42,354 nucleotides of DNA from an uncultured Ruminococcus sp. Lineage in GTDB: Bacteria; Bacillota; Clostridia; Lachnospirales; Lachnospiraceae. Location of the stretch: the NCBI GenBank assembly GCA_904377845.1, contig CAJFGR010000015.1, forward strand, positions 1 to 42,354, in the 5' to 3' direction. The position numbers and the translations under genes are program-made. Below are positions 1,023 through 37,041 of the stretch, piece by piece. The notes below the pieces were generated by a model. The model was not told where the DNA came from, did not search any database, and was given only the letters and a program-made list of their open reading frames with translations. How positions within the stretch are numbered: position 1 is the stretch's first letter; every line of letters begins with the position of its first letter.

Positions 1023-1802
1023 TTATTTATCCGTCCCCTTCATCCTCTCATAGATCAGCCTCAGCCCGTTCAGCGTCAGCTGCGGATCGTACAGATCAAT
1101 GCACCCCGTCTCTTTGGCGATGATCTTTCCCAGACCGCCTGTAGCGATCACATACGCATCCGTATATCCGGACTCCTCTTTCATCTTTCTCACAATATAT
1201 TCCGTCTGGCCGATAGCTCCGAACACCAGACCTCCCTGCATACCCGAGACAGTGTCCCGTGCAAGCACGGAGTCCGGCTTCTGGATCTGGATGGCAGGCA
1301 GCATAGCCGCCCCGCCCCAGAGAGAGCGCCCCGCCGTCTCGATACCGGGAGCAATGATGCATGCCTCAAGCGTACTGTCAGGGCCGATCAGGTCATAAGT
1401 GGTCGCTGTCCCGAAATCAATAACGATGGCCGGACCTTTCGCAATCGCATATCCTGCGACCGCATTGACGATACGGTCAGGGCCTGTCCTGGAAGGATTG
1501 TCCGTATTCACGCGGATGCCGGTATCGGAATCCGCGGAGACAATCAACGGAGTTGTGTGCAGATATTTGATAATTCCGCTTGTCAGGGAATGCATGATGT
1601 CCGGCACGACCGATGCGATGATGACAGCCTTGATCTTCTTCGGGTCAATGGCCCTGTGTTCCAGTATGCCGCAGATGGTCATCCCGTATTCATCCGATGT
1701 TCTCGGGCGCTTCGTAGTCATGCGGAACATCCCCAGCAGAACGTCCTCCCTGAACACTCCCATTGTGATATTTGTATTTCCCACATCGATCGTAAGCAGC
1801 AT
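1023..1802 (-). CDS. coaX: Type III pantothenate kinase
   Basis: Phosphorylates pantothenate in the first step of coenzyme A synthesis, in the cytoplasm. The N-terminal MLLTIDVGNTNITMG is the ASKHA phosphate-1 motif of CoaX. Further motifs are SRTGPDRIVNAVAGY, the DFGTATTYD phosphate-2 motif and the C-terminal ATGGLGKIIA adenosine motif. A longer frame reaches back to 1844, but the ATG at 1802 starts exactly at the conserved MLLTIDVGNTN and is preceded by a GGAGG ribosome site, so I chose it (259 residues). Type III enzymes are not feedback-inhibited by CoA, a known family property. It is upstream of dusB in a two-gene unit. Confidence 0.95.
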   Translation of the reverse strand: MLLTIDVGNTNITMGVFREDVLLGMFRMTTKRPRTSDEYGMTICGILEHRAIDPKKIKAVIIASVVPDIMHSLTSGIIKYLHTTPLIVSADSDTGIRVNTDNPSRTGPDRIVNAVAGYAIAKGPAIVIDFGTATTYDLIGPDSTLEACIIAPGIETAGRSLWGGAAMLPAIQIQKPDSVLARDTVSGMQGGLVFGAIGQTEYIVRKMKEESGYTDAYVIATGGLGKIIAKETGCIDLYDPQLTLNGLRLIYERMKGTDK

Positions 1803-1846
1803 ACGCGTTCCTCCCCGCATTTTCATCTTCGTTAGTTGTAACATTT

Positions 1847-1876: not shown

Positions 1877-1913
1877 GTGCACCTTACCAATTCTTCTGAC
1901 CGATGCTAAAACA

Positions 1914-1950
1914 CCTCCGCCGGCAGAACTTTTCTTCCCGGCAGAGGCAT
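1914..1950 (-). terminator. Rho-independent terminator of the acyl-ligase operon
   Basis: On the minus strand CCTCTGCCGG and CCGGCGGAGG form a 10-bp stem with one GU pair and a 14-nt loop, followed by TGTTTTAG. It sits just past the stop codon of the acyl ligase, the last gene of the operon. Confidence 0.75.
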
Positions 1951-1955
1951 TTTAC

Positions 1956-3464
1956 TTAAAATCTTTTTATCTTTCTTGTAGTTGTCTTCTCGAACTCTTT
2001 ATCTCTGACGATCAGGCTGTATATCCTCTTCTGGGGAGCCGCCGTCTTATTATACTCGTCGATGATCTCCTGAAGTTTTGCCCGCACGTCTTTGATACGT
2101 TTCTTCTTTACATAATCCTGATCCGGATAGATCTCCGCCTCGATCACGCCGTCTTTCTCGCGGACAAGTATTTCGCCCACAAGGCGGTTTGTGCTCAGTG
2201 CGTTTTCCAGTTCCTCCGGTGACACGTTCTCACCGTTCTTTGTGATGATCAGGTTCTTCTTACGGCCAGTCAGATAGACAAATCCGTCCTCGTCCACATA
2301 GCCCAGGTCTCCGGTCTTCAGCCAGCCGTCTTCCAGAGTCTCGGCCGTCTCTTCCGGCATCTTATAGTATCCCTGCATCACACTGCTGCCCTTTACCCAG
2401 AGCTCGCCGTCCACGGTCTTTGCCTCACAGTTGGGCAGGAGCTGTCCCACGGAATCCGAGCGGATATTCCAGCTCTGGTTGACGCTGATAACAGGAGCGC
2501 ACTCGGTCATGCCGTAGCCCTGCTGAATGACGATATCATATTTTTTGAACATATCGATATATTTCGGATCCAGATAAGCTCCGCCGCTGCAGATCGTGTG
2601 GAACTGTTTACCGAACACCTGGCTTTTGACGATTTTGGCCGGAAGGAGAGAAGCCTCCTCCAGTTTCTTCGCCATTGTCTCGATCATCAGCGGCACCATC
2701 AGGATCATTTCCGGCTTGAACAGTTTGATATTCTTCGCCACACGCATCAGGGAGTCGTTGATACAGATCACCGCGCCCAGAGATGTTCCTTTCAGGATAT
2801 CCATGCTCAGGCAGTATGCGTGATGGATCGGCAGAACCGTCATGATCACAGTGCGCTCCGGAATCTTCATTTCCAGGCAGGTGGCGTTCTCCGCCACATT
2901 TCTGTGGGTAAGCATAACACCTTTGCTCTTTCCTGTCGTACCGGACGTAAACATGATCGTACAAAGCTGGTCCGGATCCGGGTCATAGTCACAGTTTCCC
3001 CTGTTCTCCTCCAGCAGTTTCCAGAATGAAAATGCATGATCGTCATTTTCTTTCTGCTGCATGGAAATCATTGTCTTAAGCTGCGGGCAACGTTCTTTCG
3101 CGATAGCTGCCACATCTTTTCTCACTTCATCATATACAAGCACCGTGGAATCCGATCTCGCGATCAGGTCGCACACATCTTCCGCCGGGAGATTGACGTC
3201 CAGCGGCACGACCACGCTGCCGCTGTTGACTGTCCCGAAGTAAGTCACCAGCCATTCATAGGACGTCATGCCGATCACAGAGATATGCTTACCCTGCTCT
3301 CCGAGACTCTTCAGTACATTTGAAAAGCTCTCACTGTCATCTTTAAGCTGCGTATATGATTTTGATTCAATCTCGTTTTTACTGATCTTATAACGTACCG
3401 CATCCTCCGGTCCGTATTTCTTTTCTGTATTTACAAGGATCTGACGCACTGTGCTGCAAAGCAT
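1956..3464 (-). CDS. AMP-dependent acyl (fatty acid) ligase
   Basis: A member of the ANL superfamily that adenylates a carboxylic acid and passes it to a thiol. Residues 172-183 hold the phosphate-binding motif TSGTTGKSKG. YGMTECAP is the A5 motif, the stretch from GELWVKGS to TGDLGYVDEDG is A7, GRKKNLIITKNGENVSPEE is A8, and the C-terminal TTRKIKRF supplies the catalytic lysine (K498). At 502 residues it is shorter than typical long-chain acyl-CoA ligases (about 550-620). The acp gene starts 20 bp upstream, so the likely acceptor is the ACP phosphopantetheine rather than free CoA; that is inference from gene order. Substrate specificity cannot be read from the sequence. It is the last gene of the TetR-linked operon. 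Confidence 0.88.
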   Translation of the reverse strand: MLCSTVRQILVNTEKKYGPEDAVRYKISKNEIESKSYTQLKDDSESFSNVLKSLGEQGKHISVIGMTSYEWLVTYFGTVNSGSVVVPLDVNLPAEDVCDLIARSDSTVLVYDEVRKDVAAIAKERCPQLKTMISMQQKENDDHAFSFWKLLEENRGNCDYDPDPDQLCTIMFTSGTTGKSKGVMLTHRNVAENATCLEMKIPERTVIMTVLPIHHAYCLSMDILKGTSLGAVICINDSLMRVAKNIKLFKPEMILMVPLMIETMAKKLEEASLLPAKIVKSQVFGKQFHTICSGGAYLDPKYIDMFKKYDIVIQQGYGMTECAPVISVNQSWNIRSDSVGQLLPNCEAKTVDGELWVKGSSVMQGYYKMPEETAETLEDGWLKTGDLGYVDEDGFVYLTGRKKNLIITKNGENVSPEELENALSTNRLVGEILVREKDGVIEAEIYPDQDYVKKKRIKDVRAKLQEIIDEYNKTAAPQKRIYSLIVRDKEFEKTTTRKIKRF

Positions 3465-3484
3465 AACTCACATTCCTTTCCGAA

Positions 3485-3712
3485 CTATTTTACTAATGTT
3501 TCAAGGTAATCGACAGCCTCCTGTACTGTGCGGATATTTACCACTTCTGACTGCTCTACTTCCACATCGAACTCGTCCTCGATCTCGCCCAGCATACTCA
3601 TAAAGTCGAAGGATGTAAAGCCCAGATCCTCCATAAAGCGTGACTCCGGATGAATGTTTTCCGGCTCTACTTCAACATAATTGCAGATGATTTTAACTAA
3701 TCTTTCAAACAT
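3485..3712 (-). CDS. Acyl carrier protein, pathway-specific
   Basis: A 75-residue acidic helical carrier protein. The phosphopantetheine site is Ser34 in the motif LGFTSFDFM, which differs from the canonical GxDSL: the Asp before Ser is Thr and the Leu after is Phe. It carries an intermediate as a thioester on the 4'-phosphopantetheine arm. Its position between a condensation-type acyltransferase and an AMP ligase suggests that the ligase loads it and the acyltransferase unloads it. It is probably not the housekeeping fatty-acid ACP, which normally sits with fab or plsX genes. The ribosome site AAGGAG is well placed. No dedicated phosphopantetheinyl transferase lies in the operon, so a housekeeping AcpS or Sfp enzyme would be needed. 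Confidence 0.9.
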   Translation of the reverse strand: MFERLVKIICNYVEVEPENIHPESRFMEDLGFTSFDFMSMLGEIEDEFDVEVEQSEVVNIRTVQEAVDYLETLVK

Positions 3713-3747
3713 GATTATTCTCCTTTTCTAACCATATTAATGATGTT

Positions 3748-3787
3748 GGGGCAAAAGCCCCTGACTATGACGCCTGCGGATTGCCCC
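3748..3787 (-). other. Intercistronic stem-loop with two alternative pairings
   Basis: Between the acyltransferase gene and acp, GGGGC (3748-3752) can pair with GCCCC (3757-3761) through a four-base loop. The extended GGGGCAA (3748-3754) can instead pair with TTGCCCC (3781-3787). There is no U-run, so it is not a standard terminator. It may set the mRNA stability of the distal acp and ligase genes. Confidence 0.4.
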
Positions 3788-3792
3788 TGGCA

Positions 3793-5199
3793 TTATACTA
3801 ATTTGATGATCTCTCCGATTGTCAGATCCGGATTCTCCGCGCCTTTGAACATGATCTTGCACAGATAGTAGTACAGGTACTCCAGCTCTTCTCTGGATAC
3901 CGCCTTGATCTGATGCTCGAAGTTAAAGTCCAGTCCGTTATCCTCCGGGCGGTGCATTACGGTCAGATACATTCCCTGCGGGCAGATCCCGTTGGGATAC
4001 CATTTTGTCTTGTAGCGGATATCTCCCAGCTGATCCAGCCCTTTCTCTTTCAGAGTCAGCGGCTGATATGTAAGTGAGATTGGCTCGTATCCGAGACCCG
4101 GCTGCGGCTGCGGATATGTCTTTGCACGGTATGCAAAGTATGCCGTCGGGTCATAGTTTGCGTGCCGGAAATATTCATTCTGTTTGTCACGGATTGCATA
4201 AACACCGTCGATGAACTTCATGTCCTGCGGGAAGATCGTGCGGAACGGAAAGGAATGGATCCTTGTGCCGCCGGATTTCTTTTCTTTCAGAGTCGCACGT
4301 CTTGCAATAGTCGTAGTAAGGGACACATCGTCAAAGCCGTTCATCTTCTGATAATAGGTACGGAGTCCCATGAGCAGAAGGCAGGCAAGCGAAACATGGT
4401 ATTTCTCGCAGAAGTCCATGAGACGTTTCGTCGGTTCTGCCTCAAGATGGAAGATATCGAGAGCTGACTTTGTATCATCTGTGACACAGAATGCTGATCT
4501 GAGCTCCGGATTCTTGAACATCTCACGCATGGACTCCAGTTTTGCCGTACCGTGAAGATCATTGTAGATCGGCTCGCTTTTCTCAATCTCCTTCTGGAAA
4601 TATTCGATATCTCTTAACTGAGCCTTGCTTCCCGCTTCGTATGCGAAGTCTCTCTGCAGCTGCTCGATGTAGGATGCCATATCTTTCGGATACGGAACAC
4701 CTTCATATTTTGCATTACAGTAAAGCTCGATAATATCTTTCAGGAAACAGATCAGTGACTGCGCGTCCACGATCATATGATTTCCGAGGAAATACACTCC
4801 GTTAAAGCCATCCGGCATCTTGATCATAACGATTCTGGTCAGCGGCGCGTCAAACATCTTGAACGGCACAGTAGTCCATTTCTGCATCTCTGCTTCAGCC
4901 TCTTCCATCGTGCGGTCCGAAAAATCGACAAATTCAATATCTTTCTCTTCCGGATCCATCACATACTGATACCATGTTCCTTCTTTGTCCTTCGCGAAAC
5001 GGACGCGCATTCCTTCGCTTCTTGCATAAGCCTCATTGATTGATTTTTTCAGCTGATCCCAGTCCAGCTCCACCTCGATCGTAAGACTTGTCCCGATGTT
5101 GAGGACTGCCATATTCGGGCAGTGCGGTGCATAGTAGAGATGGAATTTCTGTGCTACAGTAAGCGGATACACTTTGTGTCCTTTTCTTGTCTTCATCAT
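3793..5199 (-). CDS. Condensation-domain-like acyltransferase
   Basis: A 468-residue stand-alone protein that resembles the CoA- or carrier-dependent acyltransferase fold (NRPS condensation domains, alcohol acetyltransferases, PapA-type enzymes). The catalytic HxxxD is H141-D145 in the sequence LGNHMIVDAQS; the usual first His of HHxxxDG is Asn and the Gly is Ala. N-terminal residues 15-35 (AQKFHLYYA) match the strand that begins such domains. Members move an acyl group from a thioester to an amine or alcohol. With an ACP and ligase beside it, the predicted role is to transfer the ACP-bound acyl group to an unknown acceptor. Its ATG overlaps the hydrolase stop by 4 bp, implying translational coupling. 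No C-terminal carrier or adenylation domain is attached. Confidence 0.75.
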   Translation of the reverse strand: MMKTRKGHKVYPLTVAQKFHLYYAPHCPNMAVLNIGTSLTIEVELDWDQLKKSINEAYARSEGMRVRFAKDKEGTWYQYVMDPEEKDIEFVDFSDRTMEEAEAEMQKWTTVPFKMFDAPLTRIVMIKMPDGFNGVYFLGNHMIVDAQSLICFLKDIIELYCNAKYEGVPYPKDMASYIEQLQRDFAYEAGSKAQLRDIEYFQKEIEKSEPIYNDLHGTAKLESMREMFKNPELRSAFCVTDDTKSALDIFHLEAEPTKRLMDFCEKYHVSLACLLLMGLRTYYQKMNGFDDVSLTTTIARRATLKEKKSGGTRIHSFPFRTIFPQDMKFIDGVYAIRDKQNEYFRHANYDPTAYFAYRAKTYPQPQPGLGYEPISLTYQPLTLKEKGLDQLGDIRYKTKWYPNGICPQGMYLTVMHRPEDNGLDFNFEHQIKAVSREELEYLYYYLCKIMFKGAENPDLTIGEIIKLV

Positions 5200-6149
5200 T
5201 TCATTATTCCTCCGATAAATGAATTCAGGGCTTCCTCGTAGGCTTCTGTATCTTTATAATAGCTCTCGCCGTGGCCCGCGTCTTTGACAATCAGTTTTGT
5301 TTTCGGTGAAGCGCAGTTCTTGTAAATCTCCTCGCACATCCAGCAGGGCACGAAAATATCTTTTGCCCCATGAATAAACAGAAACGGTACTTCTGCCTTT
5401 CTCACTTCCCTTGCCGCATTGCACTCGTCCAGTCCGTACCCGGCATTTCGCTTATTCAGCTTATCCGCGATCTGGATCATCGGGAATGCAGGCAGATGAT
5501 ACATACTGTGCAGAACGTGTGTAAATACATCCTTTGCCGATGTAAATGCACAGTCTGAGACGATACCCTTTACTTGAGACGGAAGTTTCAGTCCGCTCAT
5601 CATGCATACCGTAGCTCCGCCCATGGAATTGCCGTGGAGCAGGATCTGTGCATTGTCCCCGATCTTATCGATCATCCATTTAATCCATTCCATTCCGTCC
5701 AGACGGTCCATGGTACCGAAGCCGATATAGGTTCCTTCGCTCTCGCCGTGGGCACGCTCATCTATAAGGAGCATTCTGAAACCGTGATTGAGATAGTAAT
5801 AGGAAAGGCTGCCGTAATCATTTGTTCCCTGGCTCGTATAGCCGTGAAAGCAGATCACTGCCTTATCCCCGCCGTCTCCCTCAAAATATGTACCGTGCAG
5901 TTTCAGGCCGTCATGGGATGTGATCCACACATCCTCGTGGGGCTGTTCCATCATCCAGTCATGCCGTTCATGCATGAGCGGGAAATATTTTTCCCAGTCC
6001 ACGCCTGACATCTTCATGGTACGCTCTGTCTTTGCATTGTAACGTTTCATGGTTCTCCTGTAGAAATATGCCGTTCCGCCGGCTTCCGCCGCGGTCAGCA
6101 GTCCCAGGACAGCCGCTGCTCCTTTTAATAATTTCCCCATTTTTATCAC
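5196..6149 (-). CDS. Membrane-anchored alpha/beta hydrolase
   Basis: A 317-residue serine hydrolase. Residues 5-30 form a hydrophobic signal-anchor, so the catalytic domain is likely extracytoplasmic or membrane-associated. The nucleophile is Ser175 in GNSMGG, Asp264 lies in GAKDIFVP, and His293 lies in AGHGES; these form a normal triad. The oxyanion region FHGYTSQG is at residues 101-108. This is the fold of esterases, thioesterases and acyl-peptide hydrolases. In the operon it could release or trim the acyl product, or hydrolyse a lipid that supplies the acid. Substrate is unknown. It is coupled by a 4-bp overlap to the downstream acyltransferase. Confidence 0.85.
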   Translation of the reverse strand: MIKMGKLLKGAAAVLGLLTAAEAGGTAYFYRRTMKRYNAKTERTMKMSGVDWEKYFPLMHERHDWMMEQPHEDVWITSHDGLKLHGTYFEGDGGDKAVICFHGYTSQGTNDYGSLSYYYLNHGFRMLLIDERAHGESEGTYIGFGTMDRLDGMEWIKWMIDKIGDNAQILLHGNSMGGATVCMMSGLKLPSQVKGIVSDCAFTSAKDVFTHVLHSMYHLPAFPMIQIADKLNKRNAGYGLDECNAAREVRKAEVPFLFIHGAKDIFVPCWMCEEIYKNCASPKTKLIVKDAGHGESYYKDTEAYEEALNSFIGGIMK

Positions 6150-6155
6150 CTGCTT

Positions 6156-6488
6156 TTATTTCTTCTTGCTGTTGATCAAATCTTTCAGTTTAAGCGCCTT
6201 ATCGATATTTCCTTCCACTTTCAGTTTTCCAAGTGTCACCGCGAGGATCGGGTCTGTCTTTCCATCAGCAATCTTAAACAGCGTCTCTGCCGTACAGGTA
6301 AACATCGCGTCGCGGTCGAAATATTCGTAAGGCTCTATATAGAGCTGTCCATCTTTCACCTCGGCATAAAAAATGCCCTCCGCTTCACCGGTGATGTTGA
6401 ACTGATATGCCAGATGTTCATGGATATCGCTTACATCTGCATCCATCAGCATACTCTTTACTTTTGAAAACATATCTGCGTAGGTCAT
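6156..6488 (-). CDS. SCP2 sterol-carrier-like protein
   Basis: A 110-residue protein matching the SCP2 sterol-binding fold. The segments FNITGEAEGIFYAEVKDGQLYIEPYEYFDRDAMFTCTAETLFKIADGKTDPILAVTLGKLKVEGNIDKALKL include the characteristic GKLKVEGN loop near the end of the fold; they are listed here only as a description of the whole domain core. The family binds lipids or acyl-CoAs in a hydrophobic tunnel. I set the start at the ATG at 6488, which follows AGGAGGAG; a longer frame to 6536 would run through operator repeats. As first gene of the operon it may present the lipid substrate to the other enzymes, which is inference. Confidence 0.82.
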   Translation of the reverse strand: MTYADMFSKVKSMLMDADVSDIHEHLAYQFNITGEAEGIFYAEVKDGQLYIEPYEYFDRDAMFTCTAETLFKIADGKTDPILAVTLGKLKVEGNIDKALKLKDLINSKKK

Positions 6489-6498
6489 AATCTCCTCC

Positions 6499-6580
6499 TT
6501 TTCGACCGCAACAGTCGTTTTTCGACCATCGGTCATCTTCTCTTCTCTGTTAGATTATCATTTTTTCGACTGTCGGTCAA
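6499..6580. promoter_or_regulatory. TetR operator repeats over the operon promoter
   Basis: Two copies of TTTTCGAC-N2-TCGGTCA occur at 6519-6536 and 6563-6580, 44 bp apart, and a partial copy (TTTTCGACC) at 6499-6507. The core of the second is the palindrome CGAC-T-GTCG. The second copy covers the minus-strand -35 TTGACC (6580-6575), which is 17 bp from a weak -10 TAATCT (6557-6552). This is the expected layout for repression by the adjacent TetR protein. The binding assignment is inference. Confidence 0.7.
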
Positions 6581-6658
6581 TCGTTGTCTCTGTCAAAATG
6601 AAAAGTTTTTTTATTCTCCTTTTTGTGCGTTTTTCTTGCTGGCTCTTTTGCAGGGGAT

Positions 6659-6668
6659 ATGCTATACT
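6659..6668 (+). promoter_or_regulatory. Extended -10 promoter of tetR
   Basis: TGCTATACT is an extended -10 element (TGn plus TATACT at 6663-6668), about 45 bp before the tetR ATG. No good -35 box is visible, which is tolerated by extended -10 promoters. Confidence 0.5.
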
Positions 6669-6713
6669 TGATGTGCTTACCGAAGGAGATGTACGTTGGG
6701 AAAGGAGGAGATT

Positions 6714-7325
6714 ATGGCCGGCAGCGGGAAGAAATATGATCTGATACTTGATTCTTTACAGAAACTTCTGGAAAATAAAAATCTGCAGACAATTTCCGTC
6801 AGCGAGATTGCCCAGACGGCCGGAATCGGCAAGGGTAGTATCTATTATTATTTCCCTTCTAAAGACGCTATTCTTGAGGCTCTCGTGGAACGGAACTACG
6901 AAAAGCCGCTTACAACAGCTAAGAATCTTGCCTGCCAGACAGATATTCCTCCGTTTACACGTATGGCCATGATCTTTCAGGCGTGCCGCAACTCATCTAC
7001 GGAATATCTGAAATCAGGAAAAGAAAGCGGGGTAAGCGCCCCTGAAAAAGCGCTGCTCCACCAGAAATATATGAACCATCTGATCTCCGAATTCAAGCCT
7101 GTTCTGGCGGAAATCATCCGACAGGGCATTGATACGGGAGAGATTCATTTTGACAGACCTGAGGTACTGGCAGAGATCGTCCTGATTGTCCTCACTGTCA
7201 AAATGGACAACACCATCGTCCCATCATCCCGGGAGAATATCGAAGAGACCATCGAAGGGCTTGTAGCCCTGCTTGAAAAGGGAACGGACAACCCGCCCGG
7301 GTCGCTTAACTTTCTTCTGGCATAA
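6714..7325 (+). CDS. TetR/AcrR family transcriptional regulator
   Basis: A 203-residue one-component regulator divergent from the acyl operon. The N-terminal helix-turn-helix is clear: TISVSEIAQTAGIGKGSIYYYFPSKD, followed by the usual linker helix. The C-terminal two-thirds is the divergent ligand-binding bundle, so the ligand cannot be named; an acyl-CoA or lipid is plausible given its neighbours and the FadR/FatR branch of the family. The start is the ATG at 6714, preceded by AAAGGAGGAG; a TTG 18 bp upstream lies before that ribosome site and is less likely. It probably represses the operon through the repeats at 6499-6580. Confidence 0.92.
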   Translation: MAGSGKKYDLILDSLQKLLENKNLQTISVSEIAQTAGIGKGSIYYYFPSKDAILEALVERNYEKPLTTAKNLACQTDIPPFTRMAMIFQACRNSSTEYLKSGKESGVSAPEKALLHQKYMNHLISEFKPVLAEIIRQGIDTGEIHFDRPEVLAEIVLIVLTVKMDNTIVPSSRENIEETIEGLVALLEKGTDNPPGSLNFLLA

Positions 7326-7340
7326 ATTTTCTTTCAAAAA

Positions 7341-7390
7341 AATAAGATCTCCCTGAGCAGATACATTCCGCTTTCGGAGATCTTATTTGT
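7341..7390. terminator. Bidirectional terminator between tetR and the epimerase gene
   Basis: AATAAGATCTCC (7341-7352) and GGAGATCTTATT (7376-7387) form a perfect 12-bp stem with an A-run on the left and a T-rich right side. It lies between two converging genes and can stop transcription from both. Confidence 0.85.
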
Positions 7391-7444
7391 TATCATTTTA
7401 TCCTTCACACGCTTCATTCAGCCGCCGGAAGGATTTCAGCAGTA

Positions 7445-8317
7445 TCAGTTGCCTGCAATAATTTCGTACTCTTTGCTGAAGCTTTCGCCCGGAGCCGCTC
7501 TGTTTACATTCGGCTTCTGAGAAAGCTCTTTATCAAACCCGATATCATCGCATCTTCCCATCCACGGTTCGAGGCAGACAAACGGGGCGTCTTTAACAGA
7601 CCAGATGCCGAAATCAGGAAAGCCTTCACACTTCATTCCCACATAGGGAGTTCCGTCTTTATGGCACAGCCATACTTCCTCAATCTGCCCGCCATCAAAA
7701 ATCAGCGCGTCATTTTCGAACATTTCTTCCGTAACCGGGCAGCACTCCCCGCTCAGAGCGAGCGTATGTACTTTTGTGGGGTCGGCGGCAGCCTCGGCCG
7801 GATCGATAAGGATATACTGCAGAGAATCTTTGCCCGGGAACCTCAGGATATAATCTTCTTTCTTCTCATCCGTTCCCGCAAAGCGGAACGCGGGATGTCC
7901 GCCGATTGTAAAGTACATCTCTTCTTCTCCCGGATTGCGAACCTCCCACTTTACACACAGGCTCTTCTCTTTCAGCGTGTAAGTGATAACAAGCTCAAAA
8001 TCAAACGGATAGACTTCCTTCGTCTCTTCACTGGACGCAAGAAGAAAAGATGCAGAATCCGCTTTTTCACAGATACATTTGAATCTGCTGTCCCTCGCGA
8101 ACCCGTGCTGGGATGTAGGGTAATGCGTCCCGTTAATCAGAACTGTGTTACGATATGTCTTTCCCACATTCGGGAACAGCACCGGAGAGTGCCTCTTCCA
8201 GTATACAGGATCAGCCTCCCACAGGAGCTCCGCATTGTTCTTCTTGTCACGAATCCTCGTCACTTCCGCACCTAATTCCGAGATTTCCACGCATAATCTC
8301 TCATTTTCCAGTTTCAT
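7445..8317 (-). CDS. Aldose 1-epimerase family protein (LacX-like)
   Basis: A 290-residue galactose-mutarotase-fold protein of the LacX/YeaD-like branch. Supporting segments are the N-terminal ENERLCVEISELGAEVTRI, HSPVLFPNVGKT near residue 45, the GFARDSRF loop, and GGHPAFRF with the conserved His near residue 140. Family members interconvert sugar anomers in the cytoplasm; several paralogues act on sugar phosphates, so the substrate is open. The ATG is preceded by AAAGGAGG. It converges on tetR and has no obvious operon partner. Confidence 0.88.
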   Translation of the reverse strand: MKLENERLCVEISELGAEVTRIRDKKNNAELLWEADPVYWKRHSPVLFPNVGKTYRNTVLINGTHYPTSQHGFARDSRFKCICEKADSASFLLASSEETKEVYPFDFELVITYTLKEKSLCVKWEVRNPGEEEMYFTIGGHPAFRFAGTDEKKEDYILRFPGKDSLQYILIDPAEAAADPTKVHTLALSGECCPVTEEMFENDALIFDGGQIEEVWLCHKDGTPYVGMKCEGFPDFGIWSVKDAPFVCLEPWMGRCDDIGFDKELSQKPNVNRAAPGESFSKEYEIIAGN

Positions 8318-8386
8318 GCTCTTTCCTCCTTTTCCTGATAATCGTCCTTTTTATCCACAATCCTTACGGCATACCGGCATCTTATT

Positions 8387-9466
8387 TTATTCGGCAGTGT
8401 CCGTCTGCTCCACCTGAATGCAGTTGTCCACCAGATAATCCGTCACTTTATCGCGGAGAACCGCTGCTTTGAGCTCGTCCTCCCCCACCTGTTCGGTATA
8501 TTCATCCACATCGTCATATCCTGCCTGTTCCGCATACTCGGCCATACCTTCTTCATATTCCTCATCCGTCGGTTCGAGATGTCTCTTCTCGGCAATCAGT
8601 TTAAGCGCCTCCTCAAGAGCCACTCCCTGGCGGACAGACTCGTCAATCTGCGCGTTGAAATCATCTTCTGACATCTGCATATAAGTCTCTACAAATTCAC
8701 CAAGCTCCAGTCCGTACATTCCTGCAAGCTGAGTATAGTAATCCGTCATCTGCTGTGTAAGTTCCTCCACCCGGTCCTCCGGATATTTCTTTATCTCTAC
8801 GTTATCCATCAGGGCGCTCTGGACGGAAGATTCCAGCTCAGACTCAATAGACGCCTCTGTGTTCTCCTCGATCTGAGAGCGGATTTCCTCCCTGTACTCA
8901 TCCACTGTCTCAGACTCATCGCTGATCTCCTTCACCCACTCGTCTGTCAGTTCCGGTGTAACCTGCTGTGAAATCGAATTGAGCACAATGTGGAAATCCG
9001 CCACCGCGCCTGACATATCCGGATTCCGGTCATACGGATCCGGGAACTGTACCGTAATATCAAATTCATCTCCGGTCTGGTGTCCCGCAATCTGCTCTTC
9101 AAATCCTTTATAGTCGTCCGTCGCTCCGATAAAGGAATTGCTTCCCAGCTCCAGGTCCGCTCCTTCTGCGGAACCGCCGTCAAAGGCCGTTCCGTCAAGG
9201 TAACCGGTATAATCGATATTAACGATGTCTCCCATTTCCGCCGCACGGTCTGTCACTTCTTCTGTCTGCGCATATGCGGCAAGATTGCTCTGAATCACCT
9301 GCTCCACCTGATCGTCCGTAACCTCCTCGGCCGGTGTCGGCTGGGGTACCTCAAGGCCTTTATACTGCTTTACCGTCACATAATCGTTGGACAGCTCCCC
9401 GCTGCATCCGGCAAGTGTTCCCGCCAGTGCTGCGGCGAGCATTACAGTAATAAATTTCTTTTTCAT
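8387..9466 (-). CDS. Trigger-factor-like FKBP prolyl isomerase lipoprotein
   Basis: A 359-residue extracytoplasmic protein. It begins with a lipoprotein signal peptide ending in LAGTLAGC, so the mature protein would be lipidated on that Cys. Residues about 80-170 are an FKBP-type peptidyl-prolyl isomerase domain (GDIVNIDYTGYLDG, ELGSNSFI, FEEQIAGHQTGDEFDI, FPDPY). The rest is the helical trigger-factor C-terminal chaperone region. The ribosome-binding N-domain of true trigger factor is absent. It is thus a surface foldase rather than ribosome-bound Tig, comparable in role to PrsA. The C-terminus is highly acidic. The ribosome site GGAGAAAG is good. Confidence 0.85.
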   Translation of the reverse strand: MKKKFITVMLAAALAGTLAGCSGELSNDYVTVKQYKGLEVPQPTPAEEVTDDQVEQVIQSNLAAYAQTEEVTDRAAEMGDIVNIDYTGYLDGTAFDGGSAEGADLELGSNSFIGATDDYKGFEEQIAGHQTGDEFDITVQFPDPYDRNPDMSGAVADFHIVLNSISQQVTPELTDEWVKEISDESETVDEYREEIRSQIEENTEASIESELESSVQSALMDNVEIKKYPEDRVEELTQQMTDYYTQLAGMYGLELGEFVETYMQMSEDDFNAQIDESVRQGVALEEALKLIAEKRHLEPTDEEYEEGMAEYAEQAGYDDVDEYTEQVGEDELKAAVLRDKVTDYLVDNCIQVEQTDTAE

Positions 9467-11246: not shown

Positions 11247-14200
11247 CTATTTATGTAATTTTTTACGAATTACCACAATTCCTGCTGCACACGCGGCTGC
11301 AACAAGAAGCACTATATAGATTCCGGCAGGGCTTTCAACGCCTGTCTGCGGTGCATTTGCCCCTTCATCGGAAGAATCTGCGGCATTATTTTTGTCACCA
11401 TCATTTCCTCCCTGAGGTTTCTGACCGTCATCCGGATTCTGTCCGTCGTCCGGGTTCTGTCCATCGTCCGGGTTCTGTCCGTCATCCGGGTTCTGTCCGT
11501 CATCCGGGTTCTGTCCGTCGTCCGGATCCTGTCCGTCATCCGGATTTCCCGCATCGTTTGCTGTCAGTCTGTATGACGCAACTGTTCCGGACACTTCGCA
11601 GGCTGCCAGCAGATACGCATTACCGTCTGCGCTGTCCTCAGCCGGAATAAAGCACAGACCCTCCGGAGAGTCATCCCCCGCGATATCTTCACTGAAGTCT
11701 CTGGAGTTAATATAATTTACAAAGGTACTGTTCTCCGGATCGGTAATATCATATACCATCACGCCGCCGACTCTTTCAAGTCCTACAAACGCATACGTTT
11801 TCTCACCCACGGTTCCGACTGTCACACTTTCAGACTCGGGACCTTTCTTTCCGGACCGGTCGTCGATCGATTTATCGTCATTGGAACAGTTGAAATTGTC
11901 CGGAACGTATTCCGCTGTCTTTTTTTCAAAATCACTGCCGCTTCCGTACACTTCGATCAGGCCGTTTTCATCTGCCTTGTACACGGTAAAGGAACGTCCG
12001 CCGAAGAGATAATCCGTACCTTCATCCAGGCCGTCATAATCGCTGCTGTCAAAGAATACTACTTTCCCGTTCAGGCCGCTGTTTTCCGCAGTAATCTTTC
12101 CTGTCGGGGAAGTCTCGCCGTCCTTGAAATTGCGCTCATCTTCATTGAGATAATCTCCCCACTCTCTGGAATCTCCCTCATTTGCAGTCACAAGATAGTC
12201 CGTGCCGTCCACAGAGTAAAGAGCAATGCCGTCCGGCATACGGATTCCTTTCAGAGACTCATACGTCTTCGGATTGTACGCCTCATCTTTCTTATCAATA
12301 TCAACCGGTGTTTTGCTGTAGTCTTCATAGCCGGCAGAATAAATTCCTGTTACCTGAAGACTGTCCAGATCAATTACCGCGATGGCATTTGCTTCCTGTA
12401 GTGTTATATATGCGGTATTATTGCCTGCCGCAATATATTCCGGTTCCAGGTCTGCCGACGGAGCCGTATCCTTTTTCAGTACAATTCCCGCATCTGTGAG
12501 AGCCTGTCTCTCCTCCGCACTGTCATATGCCTCAAATCCTACATTTTCTGCTGTACCGTCTGCAAGGGAGATAACAGTCACAGTTCCGGCAGGATCTGTC
12601 ACTCCTTCTCCATAGCCTTCTCTCGGTTCTCCTTCATTTGCCGTCAGGATTTTGCTGTCATCCGGAGTAAATGTCACCATATCCGGCTGTGCGCCTGTCT
12701 CATACGCCTGTTCAAATGTGAGAGTTCCATCCTCATTGCAGGTAAATACAGCCGCACGTCCGTTATCCGCGTACCCTTCCGCCTGAACTGCCACTGCAAG
12801 TTTTGTACCGTCCGCAGAAACTGCCACGGAAGTCATATCTCCGTATGTAAATCCTTCGCAGTTCTCCTCAATGATGGATTTCACATCAATATCGTTGCCG
12901 TCCAGCAGATCGATATTCTCTTTATTTTCCATGTCTTTTACGGCGATAGCTGTCAGATTCCCGGTCTGTCCGTTTACTGCATAAGCCCATCCGGTGACTG
13001 TATTATAGTCTACAATCTCCATCACGCCGCCGTCCGCATTTGTCATGCCTGCGTCATAGCGTGCATCCTGAACCAGATCAAGGGATGTATTTCCATTCTC
13101 GACCCCTGTTGTCTTCGTGCCGCCGTCTGTATTCTTCGTTACACTGAAGGAATCGATCAGCTCGCTGTCCGGTGCCGCGCTGTCGCCGGCAAGATTATAT
13201 ACATTGACAGAAATCTTGTCGCCGTTTACGTCAAATACCGCATAACTGGGGCTGTATTCCTGATTCCACTCCTGATTTCCGTACGGCAGATTTCCCGCAA
13301 GGTAAGCCTGTGATCCGGTCTCACCGTTTGCAAGGACCGGGAAATCGGCGTTATTCTCTTTGTCCACTTCTGCGAACGGAGTGTAGTACTGCATATCGGA
13401 GCAGCAGTTTCCTGTCAGATAAATTGTTCCGTCGGGATCATAGATCGTATCCAGTCTCTCGGCATTTCGCTGGCCGTCTTTGAGCACGTAGCTTCTGGAA
13501 TATACATGATCATGTCCGCCCAGAACAAAATCTACGTCAAACTCATCCATCACTTTCTCAAATCCTGCATCCACGTAGTTCTCAATATCAGAATCTGCCG
13601 CGTGTTTTGCCACGGTCTGGGTGGATTTATGGTGAGTCACAATCAGCCACTGATACTGACCTGCATATTCAGAAGTAGCCGCATTCAGCGTAGTCCTGAA
13701 GTTCTCAACCATTGCCTCTGCCTCGGAGTTATCCTTGGAAGCGCTGGGCACACTTGCATTTCCTGCGTTTTCCTCATCATTGCCTCCCGGATACGCTCCG
13801 GTATTCAGTGTGACAAAAAGTACATTATTATAGAGATAATAGTAATTCCCCTTGGTCTCCATCTCACGGCGCTCAGTAAAATCATACTGCCCCTCTGCGT
13901 TCGGAGTCACACCGTTGGATTCGGAATTGTTGGCGATCTCATCCGCTGTGGCCTGTATATAGTTTCCGTGGCTCTGGCTCGTACCGTTATTCTGCCCGCG
14001 GAACGTTGTCTTCACCTGCTCAAGCTGGCCGTTTTCATCTACACCGTCAACAGACATTTCATTCGGAAGATTGAAATGATCCGCAAACATATAGTGTCTG
14101 TCATGGTTTCCCACCGCCGGAGCGTATGCGATAGACGCCATCTCCTCCGGAGCAAAAAACGCTTCATACTCACTGGATTTTCCCCAGCTCTGATCTTCCA

Positions 14201-14780
14201 CCTGGTCTCCTGCAGATACAACAAGGCTTACGCCCTCTGCCGCCAGCTTTTCCATCATGGCAGCCCAGCCGGTCTGGTTGGTGCCGTCTGACGGGTTCCA
14301 GCCTCCGTTATTTGTCTCCCCGCTCTCCTTAATCTGTGGATCACTTGTAAACCCAAAGGAAAACTCGCCGGCTTTTGCAGTGGTATAAGTATATGCCTCT
14401 GACCATGTCTGTCCTCCGTCATAAGAGATCTGATAAGAATAGGATGTATCCGGTGTCAGCCCGCTCACTGTGGCCTTACATACCATCTTTCCTGTATCTG
14501 TGTATTTTCCTGTATCCAGTTTGGTTGGCGCTGTCAGTTCGCTGACAACTGCTTCCGCAGTAATATCGCCGAATTTCACCATTGCCTGCTCCGTACCGTC
14601 CGGCGCATACCAGTTCAGATTAACGGATGCTGTTGTCGCGCCCGGCTGAACAGTCAGATACTCAACAGATACATTTCCCGCATCCTGAACATCAGGCTGT
14701 GCAGATACATTCAGCCCCTGTGTGCAGAGCATGGTAACCGCCAGTGCAGCCGCAGCACTTTTATGCCATATTTTTTTCAT
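11247..14780 (-). CDS. Cell-wall metallophosphoesterase with choice-of-anchor-I propeller
   Basis: A 1177-residue secreted protein. Its parts in order are: a signal peptide ending near AQP (residue 29); an Fn3/purple-acid-phosphatase-like domain (about 35-137); a calcineurin-like phosphoesterase domain (about 143-510) with SDPQ, AGDQVED, GNHDRH, VTHHKS and GGHDHVYSR; a choice-of-anchor-I / phytase-like beta-propeller domain (about 590-1080, with TANEGEPREG and TANEGDSREWG); seven PDDGQ-type repeats; and an APQTG sortase-like motif, a hydrophobic helix and an RKKLHK tail. It likely hydrolyses phosphate esters at the cell surface. APQTG differs from LPXTG in the first residue. The upstream Pho-box-like array suggests induction by phosphate starvation. 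Confidence 0.9.
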   Translation of the reverse strand: MKKIWHKSAAAALAVTMLCTQGLNVSAQPDVQDAGNVSVEYLTVQPGATTASVNLNWYAPDGTEQAMVKFGDITAEAVVSELTAPTKLDTGKYTDTGKMVCKATVSGLTPDTSYSYQISYDGGQTWSEAYTYTTAKAGEFSFGFTSDPQIKESGETNNGGWNPSDGTNQTGWAAMMEKLAAEGVSLVVSAGDQVEDQSWGKSSEYEAFFAPEEMASIAYAPAVGNHDRHYMFADHFNLPNEMSVDGVDENGQLEQVKTTFRGQNNGTSQSHGNYIQATADEIANNSESNGVTPNAEGQYDFTERREMETKGNYYYLYNNVLFVTLNTGAYPGGNDEENAGNASVPSASKDNSEAEAMVENFRTTLNAATSEYAGQYQWLIVTHHKSTQTVAKHAADSDIENYVDAGFEKVMDEFDVDFVLGGHDHVYSRSYVLKDGQRNAERLDTIYDPDGTIYLTGNCCSDMQYYTPFAEVDKENNADFPVLANGETGSQAYLAGNLPYGNQEWNQEYSPSYAVFDVNGDKISVNVYNLAGDSAAPDSELIDSFSVTKNTDGGTKTTGVENGNTSLDLVQDARYDAGMTNADGGVMEIVDYNTVTGWAYAVNGQTGNLTAIAVKDMENKENIDLLDGNDIDVKSIIEENCEGFTYGDMTSVAVSADGTKLAVAVQAEGYADNGRAAVFTCNEDGTLTFEQAYETGAQPDMVTFTPDDSKILTANEGEPREGYGEGVTDPAGTVTVISLADGTAENVGFEAYDSAEERQALTDAGIVLKKDTAPSADLEPEYIAAGNNTAYITLQEANAIAVIDLDSLQVTGIYSAGYEDYSKTPVDIDKKDEAYNPKTYESLKGIRMPDGIALYSVDGTDYLVTANEGDSREWGDYLNEDERNFKDGETSPTGKITAENSGLNGKVVFFDSSDYDGLDEGTDYLFGGRSFTVYKADENGLIEVYGSGSDFEKKTAEYVPDNFNCSNDDKSIDDRSGKKGPESESVTVGTVGEKTYAFVGLERVGGVMVYDITDPENSTFVNYINSRDFSEDIAGDDSPEGLCFIPAEDSADGNAYLLAACEVSGTVASYRLTANDAGNPDDGQDPDDGQNPDDGQNPDDGQNPDDGQNPDDGQNPDDGQKPQGGNDGDKNNAADSSDEGANAPQTGVESPAGIYIVLLVAAACAAGIVVIRKKLHK
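11421..11546 (-). repeat. Tandem 18-bp coding repeat, seven copies
   Basis: Seven in-frame 18-bp units encode [N/D]PDDGQ (the second is DPDDGQ, the others NPDDGQ). They form a flexible acidic wall-spanning linker just before the sortase motif of the phosphoesterase. Copy number is likely variable between strains. Confidence 0.95.
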
Positions 14781-36171: not shown

Positions 36172-37041
36172 ATGCCGGACAAACTTACATCACAGAAGAT
36201 CATCCTGAGCGCAGACAGCACCTGCGATCTTGATGAGGAATTAAAAGAACGTTATCACGTCAACTATTTTCCGCTTCATATTAATCTGAACGGAAAAGAT
36301 TATCTGGACAACGTCACTATCACTCCGGAGGAAATCTACCAGGAATACTATAACCATAAAGTTCTGCCGAAGACCGCCGCGGTAAACGTCCAGGAATATA
36401 CCGAACATTTCCGCCCGTGGGTTGAGCAGGGATATGAGGTCATTCATATCAATATCGGACACGCTCTTTCCAGTTCTTACCAGAACTGCTGCCTTGCCGC
36501 ACAGGAGCTGGGACACGTCCATGTCATAGACAGCTGCAATCTTTCCACCGGAACCGGTCTCGCTGTAGTTGCCGCAGGAAAAATGATTGCAGAAGGCATA
36601 GATGCAGAAACCATAGCCGGGAAACTCCGGGAGGGGACTTCCAGGCGCCACGCAAGCTTTATCCTTGATACGCTTACATTTCTCAGTGCAGGCGGACGCT
36701 GCTCGTCCGTAACCGCTTTCGGCGCTAATATGCTGAAACTCAAACCATGCATCCAGGTAGACAACCGGGACGGAAGTATGGCTGTCGGGAAGAAATACCG
36801 CGGTTCACTGGACAAAGTTCTTGCCCGATACGTAAAAGACGAACTTGCACGGTACCCTGATATTAATCCGGATCTGCTGTTCATCACACACTCCGGAATC
36901 CCGCAGGACTACATTGATCTGGTAAAGAAAACCGTAGAAGACACAATGAAGTTCAAGGAAATCCATATTACAAAAGCAAGCTGCACCATTTCCTGCCACT
37001 GCGGGCCCAATACACTGGGAATTTTATTCGAGACAATGTGA
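36172..37041 (+). CDS. DegV family fatty-acid-binding protein
   Basis: A 289-residue protein of the DegV/FakB fold. Relatives bind a fatty acid for phosphorylation by FakA, linking exogenous or recycled fatty acids to phospholipid synthesis. Segments supporting this are ILSADSTCDLDEEL at the start, TAAVNVQEYTEHF (the TSQP-like region), INIGHALSSSYQN, IDSCNLSTGTGLAV, TLTFLSAGGRCS and a C-terminal CHCGPNTLGILF. No fakA kinase lies in the window. A good GGAGGG ribosome site precedes the ATG. Confidence 0.92.
   Translation: MPDKLTSQKIILSADSTCDLDEELKERYHVNYFPLHINLNGKDYLDNVTITPEEIYQEYYNHKVLPKTAAVNVQEYTEHFRPWVEQGYEVIHINIGHALSSSYQNCCLAAQELGHVHVIDSCNLSTGTGLAVVAAGKMIAEGIDAETIAGKLREGTSRRHASFILDTLTFLSAGGRCSSVTAFGANMLKLKPCIQVDNRDGSMAVGKKYRGSLDKVLARYVKDELARYPDINPDLLFITHSGIPQDYIDLVKKTVEDTMKFKEIHITKASCTISCHCGPNTLGILFETM

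Follow-up and report, generated by a model that had tools for sequence, protein, structure and literature searches.

We focus here on a six-gene locus in a 42,354-nt stretch of DNA (contig CAJFGR010000015.1, assembly GCA_904377845.1; below, the window) from an uncultured Ruminococcus sp. A gene for a TetR-family regulator (R) stands divergently from five genes that encode an SCP2-domain protein (S), an alpha/beta hydrolase (H), a condensation enzyme (C), an acyl carrier protein (ACP; T) and an AMP-forming ligase (A). The operon S-H-C-T-A is very probably one of the 'CTA' kind known from gut Clostridia, which would couple fatty acids with small amines into fatty acid amides (FAAs), hormone-like lipids. 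What the analysis shows is the gene content, the families by sequence, a gene order, operators and a promoter conserved in relatives, the terminator and signs of exchange in the C core; the substrates, the product, the ligand of R, repression by R and the roles of S and H are inferred. The first-pass annotation of this DNA had described a route that activates a carboxylic acid, loads it onto a dedicated ACP and transfers it through an HxxxD enzyme to an amine or alcohol. Homology to the FAA enzyme OaaC and the published C-T-A gene order support that route, with an amide as the likely product. What that annotation lacked is that the pathway belongs to a family described before.

The condensation enzyme and its published relatives

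C (3793..5199, minus strand) is a stand-alone FAA-type condensation enzyme with the motif NH141MIVD145A. It matches the solved protein PDB 12kh with an E-value of 1.4e-108 over residues 8-467, at 40% identity; the next solved protein follows at 1e-9. We take 12kh to be OaaC of Coprococcus eutactus because of its entry name, 'Condensation Domain Protein', its two chains, its length of 465 residues and its DHxxxDS motif, which PMC13142362 describes. OaaC has been reconstituted in vitro, where it forms FAAs from acyl-ACP and free amines (PMC13142362); it is described as an autoinhibitory homodimer that holo- or acyl-ACP opens. It falls within our tree of Lachnospiraceae stand-alone C proteins, which was built without a reference set of nonribosomal peptide synthetases (NRPSs), whose clade is published as separate from that of the FAA enzymes. 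The published FAA active-site motif is (D/H)HxxxDS, with Ala (36% of 127) or Gly as variants after the Asp (PMC13142362). The window's C has H141, D145 and Ala146, the last a published variant, and Asn before H141, a residue outside the published D/H. Both catalytic residues, to which the first-pass annotation had pointed together with Ser34 of the ACP, are in place, and the His and Asp are kept in all 109 aligned C rows (83 distinct) of the window's own clade, termed clade II below.

Three known systems come closest. First of all, the OaaA/OaaACP/OaaC oleoyl-aminovaleric-acid system of C. eutactus likewise combines a stand-alone C, an ACP and an AMP ligase and keeps the catalytic His and Asp, but its motif is DHRLMDS, as against NHMIVDA in the window. 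Second, Blautia wexlerae and further Lachnospiraceae carry a CTA acyl-amine operon that has the same C-T-A order and lies in the same bacterial family, but is described as three genes (PMC13060934). It has been reported from 36 species of the family; acyl-amine production is linked to it in CTA+ isolates of Blautia and Coprococcus catus, and CTA+ strains made more acyl ethanolamines, as well as acyl dopamines when given dopamine (PMC13060934). Third, the starter (lipo-initiating) condensation domains of NRPSs, the class nearest to the FAA domains (PMC13142362), share an acyl donor and a fold family with the window's C. These domains, on the other hand, sit inside multidomain NRPSs and use a carrier-bound amino-acid acceptor, and neither feature is present at the window operon. 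Pfam scans of the nine proteins of the first 8.4 kb and of nine open reading frames (ORFs) elsewhere in the window gave no acceptor carrier domain or NRPS module.

Clade-II operons also occur in Blautia sp. An81, an isolate (L077), and in metagenome-assembled genomes (MAGs) of Blautia (L051 and others; C 82-86% identical); B. wexlerae is not named among the best 120 of 2051 and of 2069 matches, few of which carry names. The founding work on CTA operons is reportedly that of Chang et al. 2021, on which PMC13142362 and PMC13060934 are both said to rest. In the main text of PMC13060934, a word search found none of SCP2, hydrolase, TetR, repressor, sterol carrier and promoter. Searches of openly licensed literature, which does not include the founding 2021 paper, and word searches in the two closest papers, PMC13142362 and PMC13060934, gave no description of SCP2, TetR or hydrolase genes with FAA clusters, or of recombination in FAA clusters.

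Gene content and layout

All six genes are intact ORFs of the families that had been named from the sequence, R on the plus strand and the other five on the minus strand. A (1956..3464), an AMP-forming fatty-acid ligase and probable acyl-ACP synthetase, matches Pfam AMP-binding (E 7e-64); T (3485..3712), with Ser34 in LGFTSFD, matches PP-binding (3e-13); and C matches Condensation (4e-32). H (5196..6140; 314 aa) has a GNSMGG nucleophile elbow, matches Abhydrolase_1 (9e-15) and has the esterase 5g59 as its closest solved relative (3.7e-16). S (6156..6488; 110 aa), a lipid-binding protein by family, matches SCP2 (2e-12), and its closest solved relatives are SCP2 and lipid-transfer proteins (best E 1.5e-5). 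R (6714..7325; 203 aa) matches TetR_N (2e-12) and TetR_C_39.

The starts of S, R and H were moved to 6488, 6714 and 6140, inside the ORFs as first listed, because a better Shine-Dalgarno sequence precedes each new start; with S beginning at 6488, the operators therefore lie in the promoter and leader, outside the SCP2 gene. The tight packing described earlier stands, with a 4-bp H-C overlap and gaps of 15 bp (S-H), 20 bp (T-A) and 80 bp (C-T). An intrinsic terminator with a 17-bp stem (1907..1954, minus strand; -29.2 kcal/mol, z -5.65) ends the operon as had been claimed, and none of 200 shuffles was as good. A simple consensus scan of the window lists neither this terminator nor the promoter of S.

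Promoter, operators and regulator

Further support comes from the region between R and S, which was cut from 96 loci including the window, all distinct in sequence but related; loci whose S or R alignment falls short of the start, or with odd lengths, were left out. A promoter of the form TTGACN-N16-18-TANNNT reads towards S in all 96 (shuffle mean 1.16, max 4), with an extended -10 TG in 86. In the window it is TTGACC-17-TAATCT (6552..6580, minus strand), with a TG one base before the second hexamer. The operator consensus TGACCNNNGGTC occurs exactly in 79 of the 96 regions (dinucleotide shuffles: mean 0.03, max 2), the 17 others including several Blautia rows, and in 66 regions an exact site is accompanied by a second one with at most one mismatch at a distance of 43-45 bp (shuffles 0). 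The window has the same pair: operator 1, TGACCGACAGTC (6568..6579, minus strand), with one mismatch, overlaps the -35 box at 6575-6580, and operator 2, TGACCGATGGTC (6524..6535, minus strand), which is exact, lies 44 bp from operator 1 and about 17 bp past the -10.

The predicted arrangement is repressor-like: palindromic candidate operators that overlap the promoter and are conserved in relatives, as for a TetR-repressed divergent promoter. The repeated operator-like sites noticed by the first-pass annotation next to the TetR gene are credited because of this conservation across loci, and not because of their frequency in the window or in its own genome, within either of which such sites are not above chance. 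A wider regulon was considered and rejected, the operator pattern giving 4 sites in the own genome against 14 for a reversed control. The top NCBIfam match of R is the model of the fatty-acid regulator FadR, at a sub-threshold 40.9 bits against a cut-off of 200.

Distribution and two clades

Any match to C is found in 30 of 61 genomes (the own genome and its relatives), a strong one (E below 1e-200) in 25 of the 37 genomes of the window's genus, own genome included, and a weak one in one more; in the wider samples, C is present in 55 of 397 family genomes (E<=1e-30) and 32 of 392 order genomes (E<=1e-40). The pathway had been staked on a gene order shared with relatives, and the complete order R-S-H-C-T-A is found in 71 of the best 80 of 272 named loci, whose C proteins are 73-99% identical to that of the window; it is kept even where flanking genes differ. 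Of the nine exceptions, six are cut by a contig end (L054, L059, L086, L102, L109, L110) and three are without R (L073, L074, L087). Carrier names include Mediterraneibacter, Blautia, Claveliimonas, Merdimonas, Eisenbergiella and Fusicatenibacter, often as labels of MAGs, and 23 of 99 rows are duplicates, since L002-L025 and L111-L114 largely represent the same assemblies as L031-L110 (L002 is L031). Wherever it could be calculated, dN/dS is 0.00-0.07 against L037, L041, L048 and L066; L091, L101 and L147, which are more distant, give 0.06-0.14 for the few genes that allow a value. dS is often saturated.

A tree of 63 C proteins separates a clade containing OaaC (usually DHRxxDS) from clade II (xHxxxDA). 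The 45 clade-II rows are joined at a node with support of 93/90, below the star of the tool, and long branches are present, so that this apparent split is to be held lightly until more sequences are included. Wider stretches were taken for 40 C places of the family sample, namely five higher-scoring ones and 35 that remain of the 36 with the lowest scores once the partial match G297 is set aside. In the 23 clade-II loci among them, S is present in 21, H in 23 and R in 17. The 12 loci of the OaaC clade, which do not include the C. eutactus locus itself, all have T and A; none has S or a divergent R, and H lies upstream in four; in one more, L164, an H-like gene stands downstream on the opposite strand. 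SCP2, hydrolase and TetR, described at first as companions of the pathway, are thus true companions in this clade, the TetR usually, and the membrane anchor then attributed to H is plausible from the protein's N-terminal sequence. Three other C proteins, L169-L171, stand without T or A in their vicinity, and the remaining two, L172 and L173, diverge strongly. One genome, G209, carries L170 alongside a clade-II C (L153).

Signs of exchange in the condensation core

Within clade II, operons that are close in other respects seem to have exchanged the C core and, in one case, the T-A block, and the residue ahead of the catalytic His changes as well. When the window is compared with L048, A, H, S, T and both ends of C are mostly 86-98% identical, and C residues 80 to 440 are 70-84% identical; at third positions, 160 of 360 differ in the core and 248 of 1109 elsewhere (p 3e-15). 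L031 and L048 show the same contrast (p 4e-32), and the control pair of window and L031 gives p 0.50. In L045 and L081, A and H are 99% identical as protein with a C core at 78% (p 2e-41); conversely, the C proteins of L043 and L045 are 97-100% identical in surroundings of mostly 76-98%. The A and H data hold both groups together in the tree (100/100), and the C data reject them in the approximately unbiased (AU) test (p 2e-6 and 2e-40); the A and H data, for their part, reject the N class of C as one clade (AU p 2e-53). Over distinct close pairs, which still share species, the C core is significantly lower than the other two genes in 9 of 17 (1 higher), A in 5 of 14 (2 higher) and H in 0 of 10 (1 higher). 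Finally, the isolates L039 (Claveliimonas monacensis DSM 108991) and L040 (Lachnoclostridium sp. An118) share a block of about 5.2 kb that is 98-100% identical (locus positions ~4200-9400, from beyond R to the end of C, R-S-H-C); for T-A the identity falls to 74-94%, and farther out the flanks diverge strongly. Such a block points to horizontal transfer or replacement in the recent past, with its limit at the C/T border.

The residue before His141 is N in 18, Q in 14, H in 28, D in 22 and S in one of the 83 distinct C proteins, and two of the pairs above differ in this class (window and L048, N versus Q; L045 and L081, N versus H). Over 109 rows, duplicates included, 17 positions besides 140, with 214 and 294-297 among them, hardly vary within the N class and have other residues in two or more of the remaining classes. 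The class may set the amine.

Several points speak against this view of the C core. L048, L043, L045, L080 and L081 are MAGs, and MAG or assembly chimerism may be the cause. With isolates only (n=11), the AU test does not reject a common N-class clade in the A and H data (p 0.363). The groups tested in C at p 2e-6 and 2e-40 were picked after the pair results, which weakens those values, and, since A is lowered in 5 of 14 pairs, C is not the only gene exchanged.

Alternative explanations

S is not bound to the pathway. Its homologues (E<=1e-5) occur in 90 of 397 family genomes; at 50% identity or more, it is present in 38 of the 55 C-bearing genomes and in 18 of the 397 that have no C (10 of the 18 at 60% or more). 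The 18 include G393 at 50% and G083 at 53%, where the match is partial and sits in a frame of 1310 aa. S was accordingly rejected as an exclusive marker of the pathway. Twenty S loci were fetched: 18 without C (16 at 50% or more, two at 49%) and two that are second copies of S in genomes with C. No H or C was found in any of them. R divergently adjoins S in five (L182, L185, L187, L189, L190), and in L184 a weak ACP-like match (30%) does. In L189 (G091, ~6600-8570) an intact R-S pair is followed by three broken pieces of an AMP ligase; the operon has therefore decayed there while R-S stays. Kept in this way without C-T-A, the R-S pair probably does something useful alone, for example in sensing and binding fatty acids.

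The R-S loci, once beside ligase remnants, together with the sub-threshold similarity of R to FadR, favour a reading that concerns purpose and is compatible in its chemistry with the FAA operon: the selected role would be the neutralisation of toxic free fatty acids by amidation, with R and S sensing and binding them and host signalling a by-product. No R was found beside S in the other 15 S loci, some of which are cut by contig ends, which tells against it, and on balance we give this detoxification unit close to an even chance.

As to the chemistry, three points count against FAA synthesis: S occurs without C as just described, the window's C has Asn before His141 where the published motif has D or H, and the acceptor cannot be read from 40% identity to OaaC, an alcohol acceptor, giving an ester, being conceivable. 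The product of the same enzymes might instead be an acyl ester or an altered membrane lipid, formed by O- or N-acylation of a lipid or polyol; the frequency of S and H in clade II, compared with the OaaC clade, would then point to membrane-lipid remodelling, and there is a weak Pfam match to the alcohol acetyltransferase family AATase (E 0.002, below cut-off). OaaC and CTA+ strains, on the other hand, make amides (PMC13142362, PMC13060934), and C is far closer to OaaC than to any other solved protein, which leaves this alternative unlikely. Decay of an ordinary NRPS or fatty-acid locus down to a remnant, as the presence of single-domain proteins only might suggest, is contradicted by the low dN/dS, the intact motifs and an order conserved across genera, and can hardly be entertained. 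As regards a defence role, C and H have no PADLOC matches.

Proposed mechanism

In the FAA operon as we picture it, A would adenylate a free, probably exogenous fatty acid and load it onto holo-ACP T at Ser34. C would then take the acyl-ACP in its donor tunnel, and His141 would aid the attack by a free small amine, upon which the N-acyl amine would be released. S may bind or shuttle the fatty acid or the product. H, probably at the membrane, would hydrolyse acyl esters to supply fatty acid, or remove stalled acyl groups or the amide. R would repress through the two operators, one over the -35 and one just past the start site, until a lipid ligand releases it, so that the operon would come on in the presence of fatty acid. 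Overall, we read this as a C-T-A pathway whose C would be swapped by recombination, under lipid-responsive derepression through a TetR regulator.

As to supply, A is the sole AMP ligase match of its kind in its own genome at E<=1e-20, and a Pfam ACPS (phosphopantetheinyl transferase) match is present there. The aromatic-amino-acid decarboxylase family PF00282 has no match in the own genome, which does encode two proteins of the Orn/Lys/Arg decarboxylase type (PF01276). The cell probably takes up the amine, or else uses a diamine product.

Neighbouring genes

A type III pantothenate kinase gene (1023-1844, minus strand) lies directly downstream of the operon in the window and in many Mediterraneibacter-type loci. 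The enzyme makes the ACP cofactor precursor; the gene was not found in Blautia loci, and the association is probably a coincidence. About 29 kb from the operon, the window encodes a DegV-family protein (36172-37041, plus strand), which we take to be of the fatty-acid-binding FakB type. A large secreted-looking metallophosphatase (11247-14780, minus strand) has a choice-of-anchor domain and an NPDDGQ repeat before a C-terminal anchor-like end.

Implications

This kind of pathway is already known; what this locus would add to it is a frame for regulation and lipid handling that is conserved, and a condensation core that seems to be exchanged. The lipids of FAA operons are reported to act on human G-protein-coupled receptors and on gut hormone release (PMC13142362, PMC13060934). 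A large branch of these operons with SCP2, hydrolase and usually TetR, together with a defined predicted operator, offers handles on how production is switched on. We put forward, tentatively and as something that may well prove wrong, that Lachnospiraceae keep this frame of regulator, carrier and lipid handling and swap the C core, the expected amine pocket, and less often T-A, the choice of acid, by homologous recombination, and that neighbouring species and strains thereby switch their FAA; the residue before the His (N, Q, H or D) would label the cassette class and predict the amine, and the whole would act as a natural combinatorial synthesiser of host-active lipids. If C is indeed such a swappable specificity cassette, species names would not predict the product; cassette classes might.

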